Source of the DNA: a virus | Virus record (IMG/VR): IMGVR_UViG_3300046010_012134 | Coordinates: 1 to 32,676 of that record | Strand: one strand, 5' to 3' | Length of the DNA stretch: 32,676 nucleotides | In this document: piece after piece, positions 2,915 through 15,307 of the stretch | Numbering within the stretch: the first letter of the stretch is position 1 | How the letters are laid out: the number at the start of each line of letters is the position of its first letter | The notes under the pieces: generated by a model | Told to the model about the DNA's origin: nothing | The model's input: the letters and a program-made list of their open reading frames with translations, nothing else | Databases searched by the model: none | Program-made: the position numbers and the translations under genes

Positions 2915-3284
2915 CCAGTATTTGAAGTATTTCTTTTTTTCTTTGTTCCGTAAAAACACCTATTGCAACCATGTAATTCATACCCATAACAGTAACCGGA
3001 TCGTTTGATATGATTTCCTGTGCAGACTGGCATAGCATTAAGAAATCAGCCACATTTGGATCTGTCGCTGCTCTTTGACGGATGTCTGCTCTTTCTTCGG
3101 GTGTCAGACGGAGAAGAAATTGATATGCTGTCCATTTTGGAGGATCAAAATCTATACCATTGAATTCCCATCCAAGATAACAAGGAACTCCCACTCCAAT
3201 TTTGATCATATTGGATGTAAACGATTCTATATTTGGTGTTATTTCAATAACTTTATTATTGTCAAGAATAGCCCATCTTCTCAT
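2910..3284 (-). CDS. Small conserved fibre-region protein (124 aa), possible fibre assembly factor
   Basis: The N-terminal third ([14 protein letters not shown], then a [12 protein letters not shown] turn) resembles the start of phage tail-fibre-associated proteins. The helical C-terminal part contains [18 protein letters not shown] and a [14 protein letters not shown] helix. Proteins of this pattern occur beside fibre genes in tailed phages. The gene starts with an ATGA overlap on the stop of the 915-aa collagen-like fibre and ends just before the next fibre, so it is expressed with them. A role as chaperone or fibre connector is inferred from position only; no catalytic motif is visible. 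Confidence 0.6.
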
Positions 3285-6028
3285 GGTTCCTCCACCCCGA
3301 ATGTTACATAATCTACCAGCAATTCAGTAGTATTAAATGGAAAACCTTGATGAAAAACTGCCGATCCAGCAAACATTGTTTCGGTACTTCCTCTTGGAAT
3401 GTTTGAAGTTATGGTTGCAACTAAATTATTATTAATATAATAATTTGCGAACGATGCTCCTATTACTTCTACTTTAAGATCATACCATTTATCAACTTCA
3501 AATGTCACTCCGCTATCGACAACAGTAATGTCTGTATTTCCATTTCTTTTTGTAACACATTGAAAATTATTACTTGCTATATCGTATAAATTAAATGTTA
3601 TTCCTTCCGCATCAACTGTTATACCAGCATCAGCTGCGATTCCATATCTAAAATATACCCCATCTGTGAAATGATCTACGGTATAATCGGTTATCCATTC
3701 ACCAGTACTGTCTATGTAACCAGCCGCAATAAAATATGCATTAAAATATCCGTCTAAAATATAACCAGCAGTATTTCCTGATACACGCAATGATGTTAAA
3801 AAATACTCTTTTATATTTGAATTTTCTTGAAAAGTTATTGTATTTACTGTACTTAATCCTGTATATGCTCTACCGCCACCAGCTTGTCCACTATTTCGAT
3901 ATCCGATTACTCCAAATTTATCTGGGTTTACTGATGACCGAAGAATCGTGCTCACACCTGCATTTGTAACTGATGCAAATGGACTTCTCATAGTAATACT
4001 TAAATAATCAAATGTTTCAAATCTGTTTTTTGGATCAAATGTTACAGATCCAGTCGGACCAGTGGGTCCAACCGATCCAGGATTTCCGGTGGCTCCAGTT
4101 GCACCTGTAGCACCTGCACCGATTACTGTTTTATTTTCCCATTCTTGTGTGATATCGTTATATGCTAAAACTTGACCAGCAAGAGGGATTGGAGAAATCG
4201 ATGTATTACTCAAATCTCCCAGCGAGACTTGATTCAGTGTTCCCTGAAGATCTATTGATAATGTTTTTCCTGATGCTGATACTTTTATACCATTTGTTCC
4301 TACGACTTTTACAATTCCTGTTATTCCCAAAGCGGCACTGCCAATAGATTCAACATAGTTTGTAGGAATTGCTCCAGTTGGACCAGTTGGTCCTGTAGGT
4401 CCTGCTAAAGTATTTGCGACCTGTGTTGCAGTCAGGATAATCGATGGAATAGCTGGAGCCCCACCTTCTGCAGGAAGTTGTTGTATTGAAAGATCTGTAT
4501 CTGTAGTCTTCCAAGCTAACTCAAGATAATCATTAGCATTCAATTTTAACACATAGTTGACAGTCCCGATAGCATGTCCAGTTACACCCGCGTGTCTTTC
4601 TACAACGCTCCATTTACTATCGCTATCCTCAACATTAGATCCATTTTTCTTTAACCAAATATTGACATCATTTATTTTAGTGTCATCGTTGGCAAATTGA
4701 ACTGAGTATATAATACTATACACACCAGCATTTGTGAACTTTATTCGACTTCCATTTGTAATAGCGACACCATAAGAATCAGGATCGGTATTGTTATATG
4801 TGATCTGATATTCATAATTAGCAGTAGCAGCTATTTGATCTTCGGTTGACCAGAATGATCCCCAATACCCGGGGCTTGTTCCGGAAATAGTGCCACCGGT
4901 AGCAGTTGCAGTTATTGAAATCTGCTTTGGTGTGTTCAAGTCAATATTGAAACCGTCTTTAAAGTTTATGGTTTCAATTTGATTTGATAGTAGAGCACCT
5001 TTATTGTAAACTCTAAGAGCACCACCACCACCTTCTCCACCATATCCTCTTCCCATTCCTGTCACTTGTTCGACCGGGATCTTGAAGTCTTTTGAAATGG
5101 TGAGAGTCTTATCCTTCAATTTTAAAGGATATTCCACCTTTTCAATCTTGGTGTCCCCCGGTTCTCCTTTTGGACCCCGTGGACCTTCTTTTCCGGGTGA
5201 GCCCTTTTCACCCTTATCCCCCTTCGTTCCTTTAGGACCCGCTGGACCCGCTTTCCCTTGAGGACCGGGTTCTCCCCGGTCTCCTTTATCGCCCTTCTCT
5301 CCGGCTCTTCCGGGGGCTCCTACAGGGCCTACGGGACCTTGTGGGCCTTGGGTGCCCTGTGGACCCTGTGGACCAACGGAGCCCTCTGGACCCCTTTCCC
5401 CGGGGATTCCTTGCTCTCCTCGTTCGCCTCTTTCTCCGGGGGGTCCCTGTTCACCCTTCTCACCGGGATCTCCCTTGTCGCCTTTATCGCCTTTAGGACC
5501 GGGTTCACCCTTTTCTCCATCCAAACCCATCAATCCAGAGAACCCATGCTCCCCTTGCGGTCCCGGAGGACCGGGTGGTCCGGGAGGTCCGGGCGGACCT
5601 TGAAGTCCCGGTATACCTCTTTCACCTTTTGGACCGGGATATCCTTCCAGTCCTGAAATCGGTTGTTGAATCACAATTTCTTTAATTATTTGGAGTTCGG
5701 GTTTAATTTCTGCTTTAGTTTCTTTCACAACAGGAATCTGAATGACATCCTCAAACATTTCTGTTATCAGAGAACAATTTCCCTTGATTGAATACGCGGC
5801 GTTTGTTTCCTCGTCCAAAAGGTGAATTTCATGAATACCGATTCCTGCATTCAGACAGTTTGAAGATTCAGAAAGATTTTGTTTTTCGACTATTCGGTAT
5901 TTCTTGCCCGGAACAAGATCGATATTGCCTTTCCAAAAAACAACACTTTCTCCTATGTTGTTATTTAAAACATTCTTGGAAGGAGAGTATTTTTTGTTTT
6001 CAGAAAATTCCCCAAATTTTTTTATCAT
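3281..6028 (-). CDS. Collagen-like fibre with C1q-like and lectin-like domains (915 aa)
   Basis: Residues 1-125 form a non-repetitive head domain. Residues 126-293 are 56 uninterrupted Gly-X-Y triplets with four consecutive GPP and many KGD, GEK and GER triplets, typical of a collagen triple helix stabilised by salt bridges. After a Gly-rich hinge (GYGGEGGGG), residues ~388-540 look like a C1q/TNF-type jelly roll (GYWGSFWS...[17 protein letters not shown]). Short GPTGPTG runs then lead to a C-terminal ~225-residue ConA/LamG-like sandwich ([23 protein letters not shown]). The likely role is a trimeric receptor-binding fibre. The start is fixed by an ATGA overlap with the 41-aa gene upstream. 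Domain names are by eye. Confidence 0.75.
5150..5653 (-). repeat. Collagen-coding low-complexity block of high GC
   Basis: This stretch encodes the 56 unbroken Gly-X-Y triplets. Its base composition is visibly rich in G and C (many ccgggt, ggaccc and ggacct words on the plus strand) compared with the AT-rich DNA around it. Gly and Pro codons explain part of the shift. Separate acquisition of the block is possible but not shown. Confidence 0.8.
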
Positions 6029-6150
6029 ATATGAACTATTTTAGTTTTTATTTTTTGTTGTATTGTTACCGTTGTGGTGACTTTTCCGGAAGAATTTTTC
6101 TTTGCTTCCGGTTTAACTTGATAATTTATGTGTGTTATTTTTACTTTCAT
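6025..6150 (-). CDS. 41-aa small protein, translationally coupled on both sides
   Basis: The frame [19 protein letters not shown]... ends TKIVHI-stop. It starts with a one-base TGATG overlap on the SGNH-esterase gene stop and ends with an ATGA overlap on the start of the 915-aa fibre. It therefore fills the 121-base gap between two large genes with no spare sequence. The product is basic, with a Lys-rich middle and beta-prone segments ([14 protein letters not shown]), and has no signal peptide or membrane helix. No family is recognised. The double overlap is the main evidence that it is a real gene; position suggests a small fibre-associated protein. Confidence 0.6.
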
Positions 6151-8081
6151 CACACATTGCTCCATTCAACCGCAAATCTTCCATTTACTATATTTTGTTT
6201 ATCTCCGTTTGTGATATCAATTCCATAGTCTGGCGGTCTGGATGCTGGTACATAATTTAAAAGATTTTGAATGATGGGTATTCCCAATTCATCATAACCC
6301 GCAGAAGACAAGTGCATAAAATCGGTATTGCTAGACCCATATAATTGTTGATCATTTAATCTATCATATGTCGAATTAAATGTTCCTTTCAGTGCCAATA
6401 AATTCATAGATGTTACTGGAAGATTCAATACATTCGATTCTGATCTTTCTGCAATGATTTCTCTGTAGGCTGTCATGCTATTTGATTGTGTTACCACATC
6501 GGTATCGGTGGAATTCATAGGATGAGAAACCATAACTATAAATCCAAAATTATCTTTACTTATTGACGCGGCATAACATGCAATATCCAGTCTATTGATG
6601 ATTGATCTCATATTTGTCAAAAAATTCTCGGTGGTTGTTTCAGGTTCCACAATATCGTTTGTTCCGCATTGAACAAGGAAAAGAATTTTTCCCGATCCAC
6701 CTGCTGTGATTTGGCGATTTTTTAATTCTTTCAAATAAGTAGCCAATGTGTCTATTGGGGTCGCATTTAAAGTATTTGCTAGTCTTTTGCATGTTCTTCC
6801 ACCCATATACATCAAATTATTAAATGCTATTCCTTTTGTTTTTCTGTAAACAGAATGAAATAAGAGTCCAACATTTCCTGTCACTCCTCGTTCTTCGTTA
6901 CTGAGTCCCAATGATGAACATCTCAATTCTCCAGTATTTCCACTGTTTGAATTTGATAATTCGCTAACATACCAGTCCCATGATTCGCCATTGTTGGTAT
7001 CAATAGTCAATGGAGAAGCTATATCAATATACGGTGGCTCGTCTCTACGAATATTCATTGTCATTTTTCCACCGTTTATTCCGCGACTATGAACAACTCT
7101 GTATGTGAATGTCAATCCTCTAAAAGGATGATTTTCTTTTATGCCAATTCCGCCATGAACATGACTATAATAAAAATTATTCAAAGATCCTGTACTGTCT
7201 GAAAAAGCAAACCCCCAAAATGCGTTGTTGCTGATGTAATCATAGCTATCAGCTGTGTCACCAGAGCAAATTCCTACATTGAACTTTTGTCTAAGAGTTG
7301 CGGAATTAGAATCTGTATTTCCCCTCAAAAAACCATCATACATTAAACCAAATGTTTGACCACTGGATTGACCGAAACTATATGCAGACCCCGGGGCGAC
7401 AGGATCTCCGCTATTTCTGATAGGTATAGATGAATAAGCTGTTCTATATCCTATTTCACCGGAACTATTTAATAATGGTCCGACAAAAGGTGCTAATGGT
7501 GTTGCATATACGGTCATCCCTTGAGTTTCAACACATGCTTTAATGATACCTTCATGCCATCCGTATTGACCAAATCCGGTGTTGCTGTCTCCAATTAAAA
7601 CAACATCCAAACTGTCTTCTCCGTTATTTACGGATTTTAATAAAGATGATGCTTTTGCCTCTCCATAAACCGCTACATTTGTATTAAAATCGACATTATA
7701 TGCATTAAATTGTGTTATTCCGAATTGAACAGCCAATGAATATGTCCAATTTCCAATCTCTACCTTTTCCATTATATTAGCCGGAGCATAAACATATATT
7801 CCTCCGGTATCCCCAGAAATCCCCAAATATGAAGTATTTACATCTATACCACCTGTGGCTGAAAATTGAGAAAATGTTTGCCCTGTAGATCCTTGATAAT
7901 ATACGGTAATTCCAGATGTGCTAAAATCAAGCACAACATCATTTCCTAAAGGAGATTTTTTTACAGACAGTTTAACATCCGATGCAGATAAATTTATCGG
8001 ATTGTTATTTTCATCAGTTATTTTGAAATGATGATAAAATCCAGAACCTTTATTAGTCGTAATATCGTAGTAAGCAGCCAT
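6150..8081 (-). CDS. Virion protein with SGNH/GDSL hydrolase (esterase) domain (643 aa)
   Basis: Residues 1-~145 are a beta-rich structural N-terminus (FYHHFKITDENNNPINL, SGITVYYQGSTGQTF) like those that anchor phage fibres. The catalytic part shows SGNH landmarks: block I VLIGDSN with Ser166, block III QCGTNDI with Asn475, and block V TDFMHLSSAGYDELG with Asp587 and His590. About 260 residues separate blocks I and II, a large mostly beta insertion. SGNH enzymes hydrolyse esters, including acetyl groups on polysaccharides, so deacetylation of a capsular or LPS receptor is a reasonable inference. It lies between a glycosyltransferase gene and fibre genes. The ATG is preceded by GGGGGA. Confidence 0.72.
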   Translation of the reverse strand: MAAYYDITTNKGSGFYHHFKITDENNNPINLSASDVKLSVKKSPLGNDVVLDFSTSGITVYYQGSTGQTFSQFSATGGIDVNTSYLGISGDTGGIYVYAPANIMEKVEIGNWTYSLAVQFGITQFNAYNVDFNTNVAVYGEAKASSLLKSVNNGEDSLDVVLIGDSNTGFGQYGWHEGIIKACVETQGMTVYATPLAPFVGPLLNSSGEIGYRTAYSSIPIRNSGDPVAPGSAYSFGQSSGQTFGLMYDGFLRGNTDSNSATLRQKFNVGICSGDTADSYDYISNNAFWGFAFSDSTGSLNNFYYSHVHGGIGIKENHPFRGLTFTYRVVHSRGINGGKMTMNIRRDEPPYIDIASPLTIDTNNGESWDWYVSELSNSNSGNTGELRCSSLGLSNEERGVTGNVGLLFHSVYRKTKGIAFNNLMYMGGRTCKRLANTLNATPIDTLATYLKELKNRQITAGGSGKILFLVQCGTNDIVEPETTTENFLTNMRSIINRLDIACYAASISKDNFGFIVMVSHPMNSTDTDVVTQSNSMTAYREIIAERSESNVLNLPVTSMNLLALKGTFNSTYDRLNDQQLYGSSNTDFMHLSSAGYDELGIPIIQNLLNYVPASRPPDYGIDITNGDKQNIVNGRFAVEWSNV

Positions 8082-8104: not shown

Positions 8105-8109
8105 TTATC
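8102..8109 (-). promoter_or_regulatory. Late-promoter-like GATAAATA box
   Basis: GATAAATA sits 20 bases before the SGNH-esterase ATG and overlaps the stop codon of the glycosyltransferase gene. Usual late-promoter spacing puts the transcript start near 8096, leaving a ~15-base leader that contains GGGGGA. Confidence 0.45.
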
Positions 8110-9322
8110 TGCTTTTCTGCTTCTTCTCTTTGAAGCGTTTATTCTTTCTGTTTTCAACTTTTTGTTCAATTTTTTGAATTTGTTGTTGCTTCATGAATTC
8201 TGCTTTTTGTTTTTCTATATTTGTTATCACTTCCTGATACCCAACTAGGTTTTTCTTGACTCTTTCAATGTGTTGTGGAGGAACGCGATTTTCCTTGATA
8301 AGTTTTTCAACAGCCTTTGCGCCTTCATATGGGAATCCTGCATAGAAAGCAGATGCTCCCAACTCATCAAGACATCCGAATGTATAAATTTCATCCATAA
8401 TAAACAAAATATCATTTACCGGGTATGGAATATCCGATGCCATTTTAGCAAAAAGATAGGCTAATCCCGGCTTATTGTTCATTCTATAGATTCTGGCAAT
8501 GTGGTATAAGGGTTCTGCACGAATTGGTCTGGAGTTGTAACACTCCAAGAATGCCTGTTGAATTTCTTCCCATTGTCTGTTCAACATAGCTTTTGATACT
8601 GCAACTCTGAAAAGAGAATAAAAAACTTCTTCTCCCCATCCGCCCATTTGAGCTCTTTTGGTGTAAGCTTCTATAGCTTTTTCCCATTGCTGTGAGTCAA
8701 AATATGATTGTCCAAGATAGAATTGATATCTACTGTTGTTTGGTTCATTCTTTAGTGCTTCTTCAAGAAGAATAGCGTCTTTTGCATATTTTTCTGTCGG
8801 GGTGATGCCCACATTTCTTGCCCCCATTGTTCTAGCAACAACAAAATAACTTCCTTCAAGTTTTGCTATTTTTGTTCCTGGAGTCGGACATGTTGCATAT
8901 TCATGAAGAATTCCTTCATATTTCCATCCCATCCCTGTCTTATAGATTTGGGTTCTCCACCAAGAAAATTCAGGGCGACCCATGCGAACTGCGTAACCAT
9001 CTGCTTCCATGGGTTCTGGATATTTAAAGTTTCCTTCAACATAATCATCGGCATCGATCATCCAGCAATAATCGGCTTTGCCATCGCATAAAGACAATGC
9101 CTCTGATCTATTATGACCAAAGTTTACCCATGGTCTCTCATGGAGCTCTCCGGGTATTCCTTTTTCAGCAAAAAAGTTTTTGATCATATCCTGGGTTCCA
9201 TCGGTAGAACCTGTGTCTACGATAACCCAGTAATCTATGTACTTGTAAATTGATTTCAAACATTCAAGAATGATATGGGTTTCATTCTTTACGATCATAG
9301 ACAAAGCCACAGTCTTTTTCAT
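8105..9322 (-). CDS. GT2-like (GT-A) glycosyltransferase with C-terminal TPR-like repeats (405 aa)
   Basis: The N-terminal ~130 residues match a family-2, GT-A glycosyltransferase: VALSMIVKNE strand, VDTGSTDGT nucleotide-sugar loop (residues 35-43) and a DADD metal-binding motif (residues 90-93). Residues ~190-370 are helical with TPR character (NSRYQFYLGQSYFDSQQWEK, EPLYHIARIYRMNNKPG). The tail is strongly basic. Such enzymes transfer a sugar from an activated donor; the acceptor here is unknown. A GGAG site six bases before ATG supports the start. The gene follows regA after 27 bases with no visible promoter, suggesting co-transcription with replication genes, so a host-surface or DNA target is as plausible as a fibre protein. 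Confidence 0.75.
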   Translation of the reverse strand: MKKTVALSMIVKNETHIILECLKSIYKYIDYWVIVDTGSTDGTQDMIKNFFAEKGIPGELHERPWVNFGHNRSEALSLCDGKADYCWMIDADDYVEGNFKYPEPMEADGYAVRMGRPEFSWWRTQIYKTGMGWKYEGILHEYATCPTPGTKIAKLEGSYFVVARTMGARNVGITPTEKYAKDAILLEEALKNEPNNSRYQFYLGQSYFDSQQWEKAIEAYTKRAQMGGWGEEVFYSLFRVAVSKAMLNRQWEEIQQAFLECYNSRPIRAEPLYHIARIYRMNNKPGLAYLFAKMASDIPYPVNDILFIMDEIYTFGCLDELGASAFYAGFPYEGAKAVEKLIKENRVPPQHIERVKKNLVGYQEVITNIEKQKAEFMKQQQIQKIEQKVENRKNKRFKEKKQKSR

Positions 9323-9349
9323 AATATACTCCAGATGTACAAGCGTACT

Positions 9350-9760
9350 TTATGTATGCTTCTTCTTGCCGATATGATACTTCGGAATCAATTCCCAGTC
9401 ATGTTTTTCTTTGTGAGGAATGATCTTCAATTGCTTCAGACTCACAACAGGATCTGATGCTTTATCTTTGTCAACGATATCCAGCAATCCCCATTCAGCG
9501 AGAAGACCGACGATGGCATTTCTCCTGCCAATGTCGGTCTCGTCGGTGTCGGTTTCTAGCCCATCGAGGGCAAGAAGTTCCTTGAAATGTAGGATTGCAT
9601 ATCTTCCTCTTTTATGAAGGATATGACACGATTGATATAGTTTATTTTGGGTTTTTGAGGAAACTCCCATTCTTGTGAGAGTTTCTTTTATCTTAAGGAA
9701 ATCTTCAGCATCTTTTAGCCGTATTTCCACTCCATAATCTTGAAATATATTCTCTTCCAT
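9350..9760 (-). CDS. regA: RegA translational repressor (136 aa)
   Basis: The protein matches T4 RegA along its length: EIRLKDAEDFLKIKETLTRMG, then LYQSCHILHKRGRYAILHFKE and a C-terminal KHDWELIPKYHIGK. RegA binds initiation regions of early mRNAs such as those for gp44/gp45 and represses their translation as replication genes fill their quota. The gene closes the gp45-gp44-gp62-regA order seen in T4. The chosen ATG at 9760 has an AAAGG nine bases upstream; a longer frame beginning with TTG at 9769 overlaps that site and is less likely. In T4 the DNA polymerase gene follows regA, but here a glycosyltransferase does. Confidence 0.93.
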   Translation of the reverse strand: MEENIFQDYGVEIRLKDAEDFLKIKETLTRMGVSSKTQNKLYQSCHILHKRGRYAILHFKELLALDGLETDTDETDIGRRNAIVGLLAEWGLLDIVDKDKASDPVVSLKQLKIIPHKEKHDWELIPKYHIGKKKHT

Positions 9761-9778
9761 GTAAAACAACCTTTATTC

Positions 9779-9798
9779 ATTATACATGGATTATGTAT
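9779..9798 (-). promoter_or_regulatory. Possible promoter / hairpin ahead of regA
   Basis: Minus-strand ATACAT-AATCC-ATGTAT is a 6-bp inverted repeat running into TATAAT. It lies between gp62 and regA. No good -35 element is seen at 17 bases. It could be a weak internal promoter or an RNA hairpin near the regA start. Confidence 0.3.
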
Positions 9799-9810
9799 TA
9801 AAATTCTGCT

Positions 9811-10182
9811 TTAACCGCCTTTATTTAAGGCTTTATAAATGATTTTCATGTCTTCTTCTGTTAAGAGAGGTAAAATATCCAAAGCTTTTTGGGTCGAATA
9901 CCCAAAATATTGCTTTATGACCTCAAGTTCCCTTGGATGCTGAATCTTTTGCCATTTGCTAAACCTCTTGCGGGGTCGGAGACCATGGAAAAAGTAATCA
10001 TATTGCATTCTCTTGGGAGTATGCCAAACCGCATTCATCTGGTTGGCTTGCAGAATGCTATCCGGGAAATATGACATGCAGCGATTCACCATGAAAGGGT
10101 AATAATCCTTCTCATCTCGGCTATCGGACATGACATGGTTTTTCTGAAAATTCAGGCTGTCAAGGTAATCTTTTAGTTCCAT
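9811..10182 (-). CDS. 62: Clamp loader small subunit, gp62-like (123 aa)
   Basis: The sequence MELKDYLDSLNFQKNHVM...PFMVNRCMSYFPDSILQANQMN is typical of T4-like gp62. With gp44 it forms the ATP-driven loader that opens gp45 and places it on DNA for the replicative polymerase. T4 gp62 is 187 aa; this one is about a third shorter, ending soon after a LPLLTEEDMKIIYKAL helix. The start overlaps the gp44 stop by one base (TAATG), giving coupled synthesis of loader subunits. Gene order and conserved N-terminal motif both support the call. Confidence 0.88.
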   Translation of the reverse strand: MELKDYLDSLNFQKNHVMSDSRDEKDYYPFMVNRCMSYFPDSILQANQMNAVWHTPKRMQYDYFFHGLRPRKRFSKWQKIQHPRELEVIKQYFGYSTQKALDILPLLTEEDMKIIYKALNKGG

Positions 10183-11120
10183 TACTTAAACTCACAGGAC
10201 ATCATAAGTTCCACCACACATGCCGCAGTATTGATTTCTTGATCGGCAACAAATGCAGCCTTGTATTGATACTCAGCAAGAATAAGAATTGCCTGTGGGA
10301 TGGATGAAGGACTCAGGTTTTCATAAAGTCCGTCATAGATCGCCCTGAACAGGTCAATCTGAGAATTATCCATGTTGCCAGCCACCCACTTGCGAGCAGA
10401 AGAGAAATCCTTGGACTTCATGAACCCCATGAGATCGGTGATTTTTTGATTCTTGGTATCTGCCAAGATCCCGACATCGATCTTTCCGGAAACTGAATAC
10501 CTCTGAAGTTCATTCAGTACCCGGCGGAAATCCGGGAAGAACTTGATGATCAATTCCGAAAGCACCTTTGGGTCATATTCGACCTTTTCTGTCTTCAGAA
10601 TATTTTCACACCTAGCCATGAACTCCTTAGCCATTTTAGGCTTGTCCTTGGCAGGAATGCAAAATTCGATGACAGTGCAGCGAGAATGAATCGGTTCGAT
10701 GATTCGGTTCTTGTAGTTGCAGGTTAGGATGAAACGACAGTTCTTTGCGAATTCCTCAATTGCCCCGCGAAGAGCGGGCTGGATGCTTGATGCATTACTA
10801 TAATCAAACTCGTCCAGAATGACAACCTTCGGTCGCTCATTTAGAGACACTGTACTTGCGAAGGTACGAATCTTGTTTCGAAGGGTGTCAATGTTACCAT
10901 CTTCAGAACAATTGATCATGATGTAATCACAATCAAGGTCTGAGCACAGAGCCTTGGCAACACTGGTCTTTCCTGTTCCCGCTTTACCAGCAAGCAGAAG
11001 ATTTTGTGGTTCACCGGATTTGACAATCTCCCGGAAAGTCTTTTTGATGCTTTCCGGGAGAATGCACTCCTCAACCGTCTTGGGACGATATTTTTCTACG
11101 AAGAGATTGATTTGATTCAT
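10182..11120 (-). CDS. 44: Clamp loader ATPase subunit gp44 (312 aa)
   Basis: This is an AAA+ clamp-loader ATPase. The N-terminus has the VEKYRPKTVEECILP motif common to RFC/gp44 proteins, Walker A GKAGTGKT at residues 45-52, Walker B ILDEFD ending at residue 106, and the SRC motif at residues 146-148 that supplies the arginine finger. The length fits T4 gp44 (319 aa). It hydrolyses ATP to load the gp45 clamp at primer-template junctions. The gene follows gp45 after two bases and overlaps gp62. Expression may be limited by RegA, as known for T4 gp44. Confidence 0.95.
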   Translation of the reverse strand: MNQINLFVEKYRPKTVEECILPESIKKTFREIVKSGEPQNLLLAGKAGTGKTSVAKALCSDLDCDYIMINCSEDGNIDTLRNKIRTFASTVSLNERPKVVILDEFDYSNASSIQPALRGAIEEFAKNCRFILTCNYKNRIIEPIHSRCTVIEFCIPAKDKPKMAKEFMARCENILKTEKVEYDPKVLSELIIKFFPDFRRVLNELQRYSVSGKIDVGILADTKNQKITDLMGFMKSKDFSSARKWVAGNMDNSQIDLFRAIYDGLYENLSPSSIPQAILILAEYQYKAAFVADQEINTAACVVELMMSCEFK

Positions 11121-11982: not shown

Positions 11983-12010
11983 ATTGTATCAGAAACAATT
12001 AATAAGTCAA
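11983..12010 (-). promoter_or_regulatory. Sigma70-like promoter of the gp45 operon
   Basis: TTGACT, 16 bases and TACAAT with an extended -10 TGA lie upstream of the 60-aa gene. The -35 element overlaps the stop codon of the 381-aa fibre gene. The start point near 11976 gives a ~9-base leader beginning close to AGGTGA. The core ATTGTTT(C/G)TGATA(T/C)AATG is shared with the promoter before gp55. Confidence 0.65.
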
Positions 12011-13152
12011 GACATCTCAACCCAGAAATAAAAATCTCCATCAAAGATATAAGTAAACTCTCTGCCACTAACAGAATCAAACCACCTGTCACCTATATTT
12101 GCATTTGGTGGTGTTATTCCCGTAAATGTAAATCCTGATCCAATACTTGTTCCTGTATCTCCTTTTGGACCTCTCACATATCCTGCATTTTGAAATGCGC
12201 CAAAAGTCAATCCAGAGGAATTCATGTACCAAAAGTAAAGGTTATCACCAGAAACTGTAAATCCTGTTACACCGCTCCCCGTAGGTCCAGTCGGTCCAGT
12301 ATTGCCTTGTATACCTGGTTCACCCTGATCTCCCTTTGAACCCGGATCTCCTGTTGCTCCGGTATTTCCTAAAACAAAGCCTGCTGTTTGAAGAGAACCT
12401 ATGGTTTGTCCAAAAGCATTCATGTACCAATAAACTAAAGTGTCCCTATTTACAAAAAATCCAGTTACACCGTTTCCCGTAGATCCGGTATTTCCTGTAT
12501 TTCCGGTGTTTCCTGTAGCACCTCTAATATATCCAGCATTCTGAAGAGCCCCGAATGTCTGTCCGGTAGAATTAGTATACCAGAAATAAAGATTGTCTCC
12601 TGACACGGCAAATCCTGTTACACCAGTTCCTGTTGCTCCGGTGTTTCCTGTTGTTCCTGTGTTTCCTGTAGACCCGGTACGACCTATAACATAACCGGCG
12701 TTTATTTTTGTTGCTCCAGGAACTTCAACCCCGTCCCAATATAAAGTGGTAAATATTAAATTGCCTGATGCATTTACATTAGGACTTAGGTAATTTCCTG
12801 TCGGTCCTGTTGCTCCTGTGTTGCCAGTATTTCCAGTGTTTCCTTGAATTCCAGGATCTCCGGTCGGTCCTGTTGGACCTGTAAATCCTGTTACACCTGA
12901 TGCAGATGTTACAATCTCGCTAAGATCAGAATCACCTGTTCCACCATAATACCAGAATTTTTTAGGAAGCCCGTTAATGATAAGACGAACTTCCATTGAA
13001 TTAAATCTTACACCGAGTGGAATTGAAGCATTTGCTAATGATTTTGCTTCACTTTCAGATGCGCCGGTGAAAGGACCCGACCAAGTATCAACTGGTTTTG
13101 GGTTGACTGGCTGTATACCGAAAGGTAATTGAAATCCGTTTTCTAATGGCAT
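12007..13152 (-). CDS. Collagen-like fibre protein of the inserted cassette (381 aa)
   Basis: The N-terminus (FQLPFGIQPVNPKPVDTWSG, then IPLGVRFNSMEVRLIINGLP and KKFWYYGGTGDSDLSE) is of a type found at the start of fibre proteins in marine T4-like phages. It continues as GNTG/GPTG collagen-like runs alternating with three VTGF...GQTFG type modules and one NYLSP...GYVIGRTG module. The C-terminus is a GDRWFDSVSGREF...FWVEMS module. The start lies one base after the stop of the 717-aa fibre. It shares a near-identical 161-bp DNA segment with the 799-aa fibre. It is probably a virion fibre or decoration; the attachment point is unknown. Confidence 0.72.
   Translation of the reverse strand: MPLENGFQLPFGIQPVNPKPVDTWSGPFTGASESEAKSLANASIPLGVRFNSMEVRLIINGLPKKFWYYGGTGDSDLSEIVTSASGVTGFTGPTGPTGDPGIQGNTGNTGNTGATGPTGNYLSPNVNASGNLIFTTLYWDGVEVPGATKINAGYVIGRTGSTGNTGTTGNTGATGTGVTGFAVSGDNLYFWYTNSTGQTFGALQNAGYIRGATGNTGNTGNTGSTGNGVTGFFVNRDTLVYWYMNAFGQTIGSLQTAGFVLGNTGATGDPGSKGDQGEPGIQGNTGPTGPTGSGVTGFTVSGDNLYFWYMNSSGLTFGAFQNAGYVRGPKGDTGTSIGSGFTFTGITPPNANIGDRWFDSVSGREFTYIFDGDFYFWVEMS
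12674..12834. repeat. 161-bp direct repeat, copy B (partner at 2460-2620)
   Basis: This is the second copy of the fibre module repeat, in the same orientation and about 10.2 kb from copy A. The two differences seen by eye are at 12685 and in the CATTTACATTAGG word. It lies inside the 381-aa fibre gene and stays in frame. Confidence 0.92.
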
Positions 13153-13153
13153 A

Positions 13154-15307
13154 TTATGTTCTGGTTATTTGATGTCTGTGATTTTCGCCGTATGGTACAG
13201 AGTTTGACATTACATATACATTATATTCTGTATCTGTTCCGATATAATTTGGAATTAAAGTTACTCCTGTCGATAAAATATATTGTGCTGTTATATTCGA
13301 GCTAGCAGTTTCTAGATCCAATACTTGAGATATTGTAGATGGGTCTGGTGTAGCAAACACAAAGTGTATATGTGTTATACCGGTATTCAAATTAAAAGTT
13401 AAAGAACTGTCTGTGAATGTTTTTCCTTCAAGCCCTCTTATACTTGATCCTGTAGACGGAACTGTTCCGGTAGCACCATAGAATATTATATTATAGAGAT
13501 TGATCAAAGAGGCTGTTCCGCCGATTACTGAACTACCCAGAGAATCTTGATAATCATCTCTTACTCTTATTCTATATCTGATACTTGCTGTCGCTCCACT
13601 AGCTGCATGTGCAGTAACACCGGTACTCCATGATCCTGTAGTTCCACTCGTAATTCCCGTGATTCCGGTCGAAATATAAGTCGAGTTGTTTGTACTGAAT
13701 TCAAATGTAAATCCAGTAAGATTTACATTTGGACTATTTCTTGTGATCGTTGCTGATATATTTGTTAGAGTATTGCCTTTTTCTCTTCTTGTAACTGATT
13801 GTGGAGATGTAATAGTTGCTGTTTGTGTTATTATTGCTGTAGGTGCAATATAAGCAGCCGGAGTTATTGTAACTGTGTCTGAACCTGTTCCTCCTAATGA
13901 ATCAACCACATAATAACGATATTGAAACCCATCTGTTGAATATAAACCATCAATTGTATTATGGGTGAATCCTCTTATTGATGCATTATTTGTCAATCCC
14001 GTCCACAAGGATTCACTTGTTCGTTTCCATTCCAATGTAACTCCGGCTACAGTGGCACCAAAAGTATTAATTGTATATGTTAATCCCAATACATTTGCAA
14101 TTGCAGTTTGATTGAATGCAATTGTGGTGGATGAGGATACATCCACCGTAACTGGTAATACATCGAATAATGCCATCTTTATTACTTCTACGGCACTCTT
14201 ACCGGCGGCAGGAATTGTATCTCCATTTTCATATTTACCAAAAAATTTACCCTCACCGAATGCAGCGGTCAAATCCGTATCAAATATAAACAAAGGACCT
14301 GTTGGTCCGATATACCCTACTTCTGTTTCCGCTGTTGTTCCATTCGAGTATACAACTTCAATATAAAGTTTATTGTCTCTTATTGTTGCATTTTGATAGC
14401 CGGTTCCAGTTGCCCCTGTATTTCCTGTAGGTCCAGTTGGACCTGTGTTTCCTTGTATGCCAGGATTTCCTTGTGGTCCTTTGACTAATCCAGCATTTTG
14501 AAGTTCACCGAATGTTTGACCAAGAGCATCCATGTACCAGAAATAAAGGTTATCTCCCGATACGGTAAATCCTGTTACACCACTACCTGTTGATCCTGTA
14601 TTTCCCTGTATGCCCGGATCTCCAGTAGGTCCTGTAGGTCCCGTGGGTCCAACACCTCCGCTTCCACCAGAACCACAAATTCCTCTAGTGTCATAATTTA
14701 TCGAACCCATTTCCACCCATTGACCAGAATTCTCGTCAATCAAATAGAAATAATACCTACCAGTTCCGCTATGAAACCATTGGTCTCCGGCGGTCATCCC
14801 ACTAGGAGGACTACTTTGATAAAATATTGTGTTTGGATTTCCAGTGATTCCGCGATCACCGGTATTGCCTGTTGGTCCCGCAGGACCTGTTGGTCCTATA
14901 TCTCCAGTTTCTCCCCTTGGTCCTATAGATGCAATTTCAATCCATTGTGATGAATTTTCATCTGCAACATAAATGTAAAATCTTCCGGTTGTGCTATTGA
15001 ACCATTGATCTGCAACTTCCGGGGAAACTGGAGGTGATGATGAGGGAGAATATGTTAATTTGATTCTTCCACCAGTACCACCCGACGCTCCAATTATTGT
15101 TGTTGTTCCTGCTGAGCCAAACCCAACCCAACCACCATTCACACCTGACAATGGGGTTCTATCCGTTCTTTGAACTGCAAGATATGTTGATTCTGTTCCG
15201 GGCGAAGATGTATAGATTACAAGATCACCTGGATTATAGGTGATCTGTACACCATTGACATCGTAGGCTCTCCATTTGCCTAGAAAGTTTATATCCGAAA
15301 TAGCCAT
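13154..15307 (-). CDS. Modular collagen-like and Ig-like fibre protein (717 aa)
   Basis: The first ~55 residues resemble a small carbohydrate-binding module ([19 protein letters not shown], then [12 protein letters not shown]). Two GDQWF/ADQWF modules ending QWIEIAS and QWVEMGS follow, then GPTG-type collagen-like runs with a VTGF...[11 protein letters not shown] module. The middle contains a [19 protein letters not shown] motif that recurs in phage structural proteins, then two Ig-like beta domains and a C-terminal domain ending in a His/Arg-rich tail. There is no Shine-Dalgarno site; AATAAATA lies six bases before ATG. It is the first gene of the cassette placed between gp46 and gp45. A virion adhesin role is inferred from domains. 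Confidence 0.72.

Follow-up and report, generated by a model that had tools for sequence, protein, structure and literature searches.

A probable SGNH O-acetylesterase nested in a tail-anchor protein of a T4-like phage

P0001 is a predicted protein encoded in a 32,676-nucleotide stretch of viral DNA (IMG/VR record IMGVR_UViG_3300046010_012134, positions 1 to 32,676; hereafter the window). A first-pass annotation described it as an SGNH esterase embedded in a virion protein. P0001 is probably a virion-displayed SGNH O-acetylesterase that is nested in a tail anchor and carries an Ape1-like insert. We infer its virion location, catalysis, substrate and insert function; the computed basis consists of the motif order, the conserved insert, the fold match, the existence of stand-alone anchors and a C-terminal match to them. 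The window phage is a T4-like myovirus whose major capsid protein matches those of Methylophilales phage Melnitz, Pelagibacter phages and cyanophages at about 52–54%. The photosystem gene family PF00124, sought as a clue to the host, was found in 0 of 11 records. The features of the locus are given in Table 1.

Table 1. Coordinates of the fusion gene, its parts and its neighbours in the window, and of the gp7-like wedge loci on other contigs.
Feature	Position	Strand	Evidence or remark
Fusion protein P0001, 643 aa (anchor domain, SGNH hydrolase with large insert, last anchor strand)	6150–8081	-	
Anchor domain, residues 1–119 (phrog_1084)	7725–8081	-	phrog_1084 E 1.8e-6; 67, 65 and 56% identity to L008, L009 and L010
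SGNH module, first half: block I, residues about 137–177, Ser166	7551–7673	-	GDSNT..G..GW invariant in 9/9 aligned proteins
Large beta-rich insert (predicted) between blocks I and II, residues about 178–427	6801–7550	-	Conserved in the P0001 esterase family
SGNH module, second half: residues 428–615 (Gly428, Asn475, Asp587, His590)	6237–6800	-	
Residues 623–643, putatively homologous to the last strand and C-terminus of stand-alone anchors	6153–6215	-	Shuffle test
41-aa ORF overlapping the fusion-gene stop codon	6025–6150	-	Conserved behind the stand-alone anchors of L008, L009 and L010
Family 2 glycosyltransferase gene	8105–9322	-	PF00535 E 7.6e-12; phrog_13126 E 3.7e-29
Collagen-like tail-fibre gene, downstream of the fusion	3281–6028	-	PF01391 E 1.3e-29; phrog_6320 (tail fiber) E 1.3e-47
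gp7-like wedge locus, L109	5592–8852		
gp7-like wedge locus, L121	3971–7837		
gp7-like wedge locus, L122	1964–8414		

The catalytic residues proposed in the first-pass annotation, Ser166 (GDS; codon AGC), Asn475 (GTND), and Asp587 and His590 (DFMH), are found in P0001 at exactly those positions and in SGNH order, with Asp587 three residues ahead of His590. The proposed gap of about 260 residues between blocks I and II was likewise confirmed by counting, as Ser166 and Gly428 are 262 residues apart, and Ser166 and Asn475 are 309 apart. Pfam detects the second half only of the SGNH domain, below the curated cut-offs (PF00657, E 0.0053, residues 436–599, 17.4 bits against 23.6; PF13472, E 0.01, residues 467–597, 16.8 bits against 32.9), which are library thresholds and not a defining residue of the SGNH/GDSL superfamily. 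Ten ORFs on other viral contigs match P0001 (L101, L105, L107, L108, L109, L113, L114, L115, L117 and L118; phmmer E 1.4e-22 to 2.7e-27), some of them near-copies of one another, and the SGNH motifs are therefore not a matter of chance. Three of the ten (L107, L108 and L113) are free-standing members of the family. The pattern GDSN[TS]..G..GW occurred in 20 stretches of viral contigs, one from the same phage, ten with family ORFs and the rest without a phmmer match to the family.

The family alignment comprised P0001 and eight of the ten relatives (L109 and L115 being omitted as near-copies), with three stand-alone anchors included. Among the nine esterase-family proteins, 39 residues are invariant, including Ser166, Gly428, Asn475, Ser519, His520 and His590. 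The column of Asp587 holds D or E in five proteins and a gap in four, three of which are closely related. Spacing between blocks I and II ranges from 236 to 319 residues across the family, and the big insert is kept in all eight aligned relatives, so that it is best regarded as an old family feature and not as a peculiarity of the window phage. The invariant pair Ser519-His520 (window positions 6522–6527, minus strand; 9/9) lies outside the named SGNH blocks and possibly has a role near the active site.

An AlphaFold2 model built from the family alignment has a mean pLDDT of 46.5; an earlier model at 37.1 was set aside. The strands and helices of the SGNH core are present, with pLDDT of 53–88 in most ten-residue blocks, and P0001 is predicted to have the alpha/beta/alpha SGNH fold. 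For the insert, the model gives a beta-rich structure with low confidence (pLDDT about 20–56), while the anchor, the C-terminal tail and residues 551–589 fall below 50. In a VIA-align comparison, 81 of 997 chains reached a Z-score of at least 8, with many SGNH enzymes among the top rows and with matches covering the P0001 range 153–611. The top matches are to Campylobacter Ape1 (Z 18.4 for 8gkd, and 18.2; 316–317 residues), and the peptidoglycan O-acetylesterase 4k3u, presumably from Neisseria, was matched at Z 16.4 over 298 residues. The next entry after the Ape1 structures has a Z-score of 12.0, and other SGNH enzymes score 12 and below over about 150–200 residues. Because Ape1 aligns over 298–317 residues, it appears to match the SGNH core together with part of the insert.

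According to an excerpt of PMC9487903, the carbohydrate-binding domain of Ape1 sits inside its SGNH domain, and an excerpt of PMC6174289 places it at residues 104–221. Since Ape1 carries a carbohydrate-binding-like domain within the SGNH domain, the “very large insertion” highlighted in the first-pass annotation is an architecture of an already known kind. The Ape1 structures (8gkd, 8gld and 4k3u) share with the predicted fold of P0001 the order of serine, inserted beta-domain and remaining SGNH fold, and the insert of P0001, though modelled at low pLDDT, resembles the Ape1-type domain in position and beta-rich nature. Unlike Ape1, P0001 sits inside a phage anchor and has no detected sequence match to it, the likeness being one of predicted fold; the P0001 family profile retrieved a single chain from the PDB sequences (7ddy, E 0.7), and no Ape1. 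Foldseek returned no PDB match at E 0.001 or better, the best being a CE2 esterase (E 8.7e-3), and the carbohydrate-binding modules among its PDB matches reached E 0.045 at best. Two unannotated proteins of uncultured Caudovirales matched strongly in fold in the viral library (A0A6J5M2C8, E 9.6e-23, 24% identity over 513 columns; A0A6J5RY71, E 1.5e-20, 18% over 600 columns). The weaker matches there were phage proteins annotated as minor tail protein, hydrolase, lipase or tail fiber. Family conservation, the model and the fold matches together support the proposal that P0001 is an SGNH esterase whose insert is rich in beta structure and may bind glycans.

By sequence, the first approximately 120 and last approximately 20 residues of P0001 are assigned to a separate anchor domain, which the first-pass annotation had missed. 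This domain belongs to phrog_1084, a family with no known function (window, residues 1–64, as in Table 1; L008, E 7.2e-12; L061, E 3e-15). For comparison of the slot, contigs with a close gp44 were gathered, of which 182 were found and 80 kept. In three of these (L008, L009 and L010), with gp44 90–91% identical, the same slot holds a protein of only 140, 140 and 145 residues, respectively, which aligns to the start (1–119) and the end (about 619–641) of P0001. The anchor profile detected further stand-alone copies in L060, L061, L073, L077, L080, L081 and L083, and their size in most related phages is 131–155 residues. Across 37 kin records the anchor is present in 14, in twelve as an ORF of 134–155 residues and in the other two as ORFs of 801 and 173 residues. 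The SGNH module is absent from all 14 anchor-bearing records, and PF13472 was found in one of 38 records, namely the window. The 801-residue protein (L012, 13031–15433) consists of an anchor and an RCC1 propeller (PF13540, E 8.8e-39) added behind the last strand. A copy of this protein in L011 is interrupted by a stop (8358–8876 and 8880–10760) and may represent cargo in decay or a contig error.

Whether the esterase was placed within the anchor or added behind it depends on the C-terminus of P0001. A conserved strand (GRF...) closes the stand-alone anchors, and the best match of P0001 to this terminus, ranking top of all segments compared, is residues 623–643. Its score was reached by 0/5000 shuffles against the three nearest anchors and by 1/5000 against ten. 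With the seven distant anchors taken by themselves, it was reached by 430/5000, which is not significant, and the C-terminal match thus rests on near relatives. The last 60 bases of the gene are identical to those of L008, L009 and L010 at 34–37 positions. The short ORF that overlaps the stop codon follows the anchor gene in the window and in the same three relatives, and its conservation indicates that the 3′ edge of the ancestral anchor gene is intact. It is most likely, on this sequence evidence, that the SGNH module (about 137–615) splits the anchor and was placed ahead of its last strand. The 5′ junction is also present in a second contig, which is identical to the window over 14,626/14,626 bases, ends at P0001 residue 529 and may derive from the same population. 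In an unlikely alternative, the cargo was merely appended, with residues 120–141 taking the place of the anchor's last strand and the final 20 residues of the protein being a remnant that has no structural role. MAFFT does place the last strand of the anchors on residues 120–141, and the low-confidence model leaves the point unsettled; however, residues 111–140 score no better than shuffles against the anchor end, whereas 623–643 score best of all.

Related modules occur in other virion proteins. L101 and L109 carry the module inside a member of a T4-like baseplate wedge family (PF23786, E 1e-12) that is flanked by wedge genes of phrog_219 and phrog_438, which are read as gp6 and gp8. The annotated T4-like gp7 of Ochrobactrum phage vB_OspM_OC (phiOC_p050, 631 residues) matches both flanks of the L109 module, its residues 1–237 corresponding to 98–346 and its residues 227–287 to 861–921, and hence the esterase interrupts a gp7-like protein in L109. 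Stenotrophomonas phage DLP_6 has two gp7-like parts separated by about 270 other residues, for which no Pfam match better than E 0.1 was found. On these alignments, insertion at the gp7-like baseplate wedge seems to be a general occurrence. In L105, about 130 residues precede the module; they match phrog_673 (E 2.4e-11; label, head scaffolding) and, at E 0.057 only, a phage cement family. The neighbours of the module in L107, L108 and L113 gave no phrog match.

The placement of P0001 in a virion, as first proposed, is plausible: the slot lies beside collagen-like tail-fibre genes and a related module is found inside a baseplate wedge protein, but the anchor family itself offers no function in support. 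Four collagen-like repeat proteins surround the slot (500–2899, 3281–6028, 12007–13152 and 13154–15307, all on the minus strand), and two of their genes lie between genes read as gp45 and gp46. The suggestion that the adjacent glycosyltransferase points to editing of surface sugars did not hold. The glycosyltransferase gene adjoins the anchor gene with or without the SGNH module; among 13 other loci with a complete glycosyltransferase copy and downstream sequence, the anchor directly follows it in 12, and none of these loci has the module. In the one exception, L074, no anchor was detected behind the glycosyltransferase at E 0.1. The glycosyltransferase and esterase were rejected as a functional pair, as the gene goes with the anchor and not with the esterase.

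In the preferred reading, the anchor (residues 1–119 and the last approximately 20) would hold the enzyme out on the particle, since the whole module (about 137–615) appears to be inserted before its last strand. The beta-sandwich insert between blocks I and II, as in bacterial Ape1, would probably bind a glycan. At cell contact, the enzyme would most likely strip O-acetyl groups from an envelope polysaccharide, either surface glycan or peptidoglycan, and deacetylation would help phage binding or lysozyme cutting.

The substrate could be peptidoglycan or a surface glycan, and neither is strongly favoured. It is quite possible that P0001 deacetylates a surface polysaccharide (O-antigen, capsule or exopolysaccharide) and thereby sets host range, as do G7C gp63.1 and the fibres of Klebsiella prophages. 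Phage receptor-binding proteins often contain SGNH domains, and two of these were shown to be esterases, according to excerpts of PMC13123978 and PMC11058221, and cargo turnover at the anchor slot fits host-range selection. Yet the slot is that of a small anchor and not of a known tailspike, and among solved structures the closest fold belongs to a cell-wall enzyme. In a somewhat less probable reading, P0001 is a peptidoglycan O-acetylesterase like Ape1 that frees O-acetylated MurNAc, which would let a tail lysozyme cleave the wall as the phage enters. The top structural matches are Campylobacter and Neisseria Ape1, which align with both halves and with part of the insert; a related module lies in the L109 baseplate wedge; and O-acetylation blocks lysozyme (excerpt of PMC6174289). 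However, a substrate does not follow from fold similarity, and the sequence profile does not retrieve Ape1.

It is improbable that the module is a binding device instead, a lectin-like adhesin whose SGNH core has weak or no catalysis. The triad aspartate is missing at its usual place in four of the nine aligned proteins, but P0001 keeps Asp587, and the invariance of Ser, Gly, Asn and His in 9/9 is hard to explain without catalysis.

Phage tail proteins carrying SGNH esterases are known (G7C gp63.1, Klebsiella prophage receptor-binding proteins and Acinetobacter fibres; excerpts of PMC13123978 and PMC11058221) and resemble P0001 in this respect, but in them the domain is C-terminal in a fibre, whereas in P0001 it is nested in a small anchor. 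Another comparison is offered by a Foldseek match of P0001, D4P7M4, an 856-residue tail fiber protein of Rhodococcus phage ReqiPoco6. In the tail fibre encoded by gene 006 of that phage, a block I-like GSSTT at 91 and a block II-like GGATM at 261 are about 170 residues apart, and Lipase_GDSL_2 matches only from residue 254. Unlike P0001, it has Mtd_N as its N-terminal domain and matches neither the family nor the anchor profile. LIT1 ORF53 and five ReqiPoco6 tail fibres likewise match neither profile and were rejected as relatives.

Sequence searches outside the family returned little. Whole P0001 found no relative by tblastn in 50,697 phage records; piecewise searches in phages gave three records in all, at E 4–5, none of them credible, and tblastn in plasmids gave no credible relative. 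Related-locus searches with P0001 and two pieces returned the same phage only. Pattern scans of genome contigs yielded 395 stretches, none confirmed, and another scan yielded one (L119) without a family ORF. No description of the P0001 esterase family or of a wedge-inserted esterase appeared in the literature searches, although one may exist. SGNH tail enzymes and the Ape1 architecture are already known; what is new is the nested placement, and also that a single esterase family recurs as an insert in virion proteins of two unrelated kinds.

In the window, the esterase module appears to sit before the last strand of an anchor; in another T4-like phage it lies inside a gp7-like wedge, in a third it follows what may be a head cement-like domain, and elsewhere it is free-standing. 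It may tentatively be proposed, with some doubt, that an Ape1-like viral esterase cassette roams among virion proteins by whole-domain insertion, and that loops of these proteins serve as general display slots at which an enzyme is added without changing assembly contacts. The slots are called general because these virion proteins also take up an RCC1 propeller and further inserts. Such a pattern suggests that entire enzymes are fitted into phage particles as cargo that can be exchanged, and that a virion anchor can take a 500-residue enzyme within its own fold. As related phages with and without the enzyme share one slot, it can be tested directly how a deacetylase on display affects entry, and unannotated phage proteins gain an Ape1-like architecture together with a substrate class open to testing. 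The content of the gp7-like wedge varies among phages, with no insert in phage OC, about 270 residues in DLP_6 and the esterase in L109. At the gp7-like wedge of Synechococcus phage ACG-2014g, the annotation shows a structural gene about 21 kb long.
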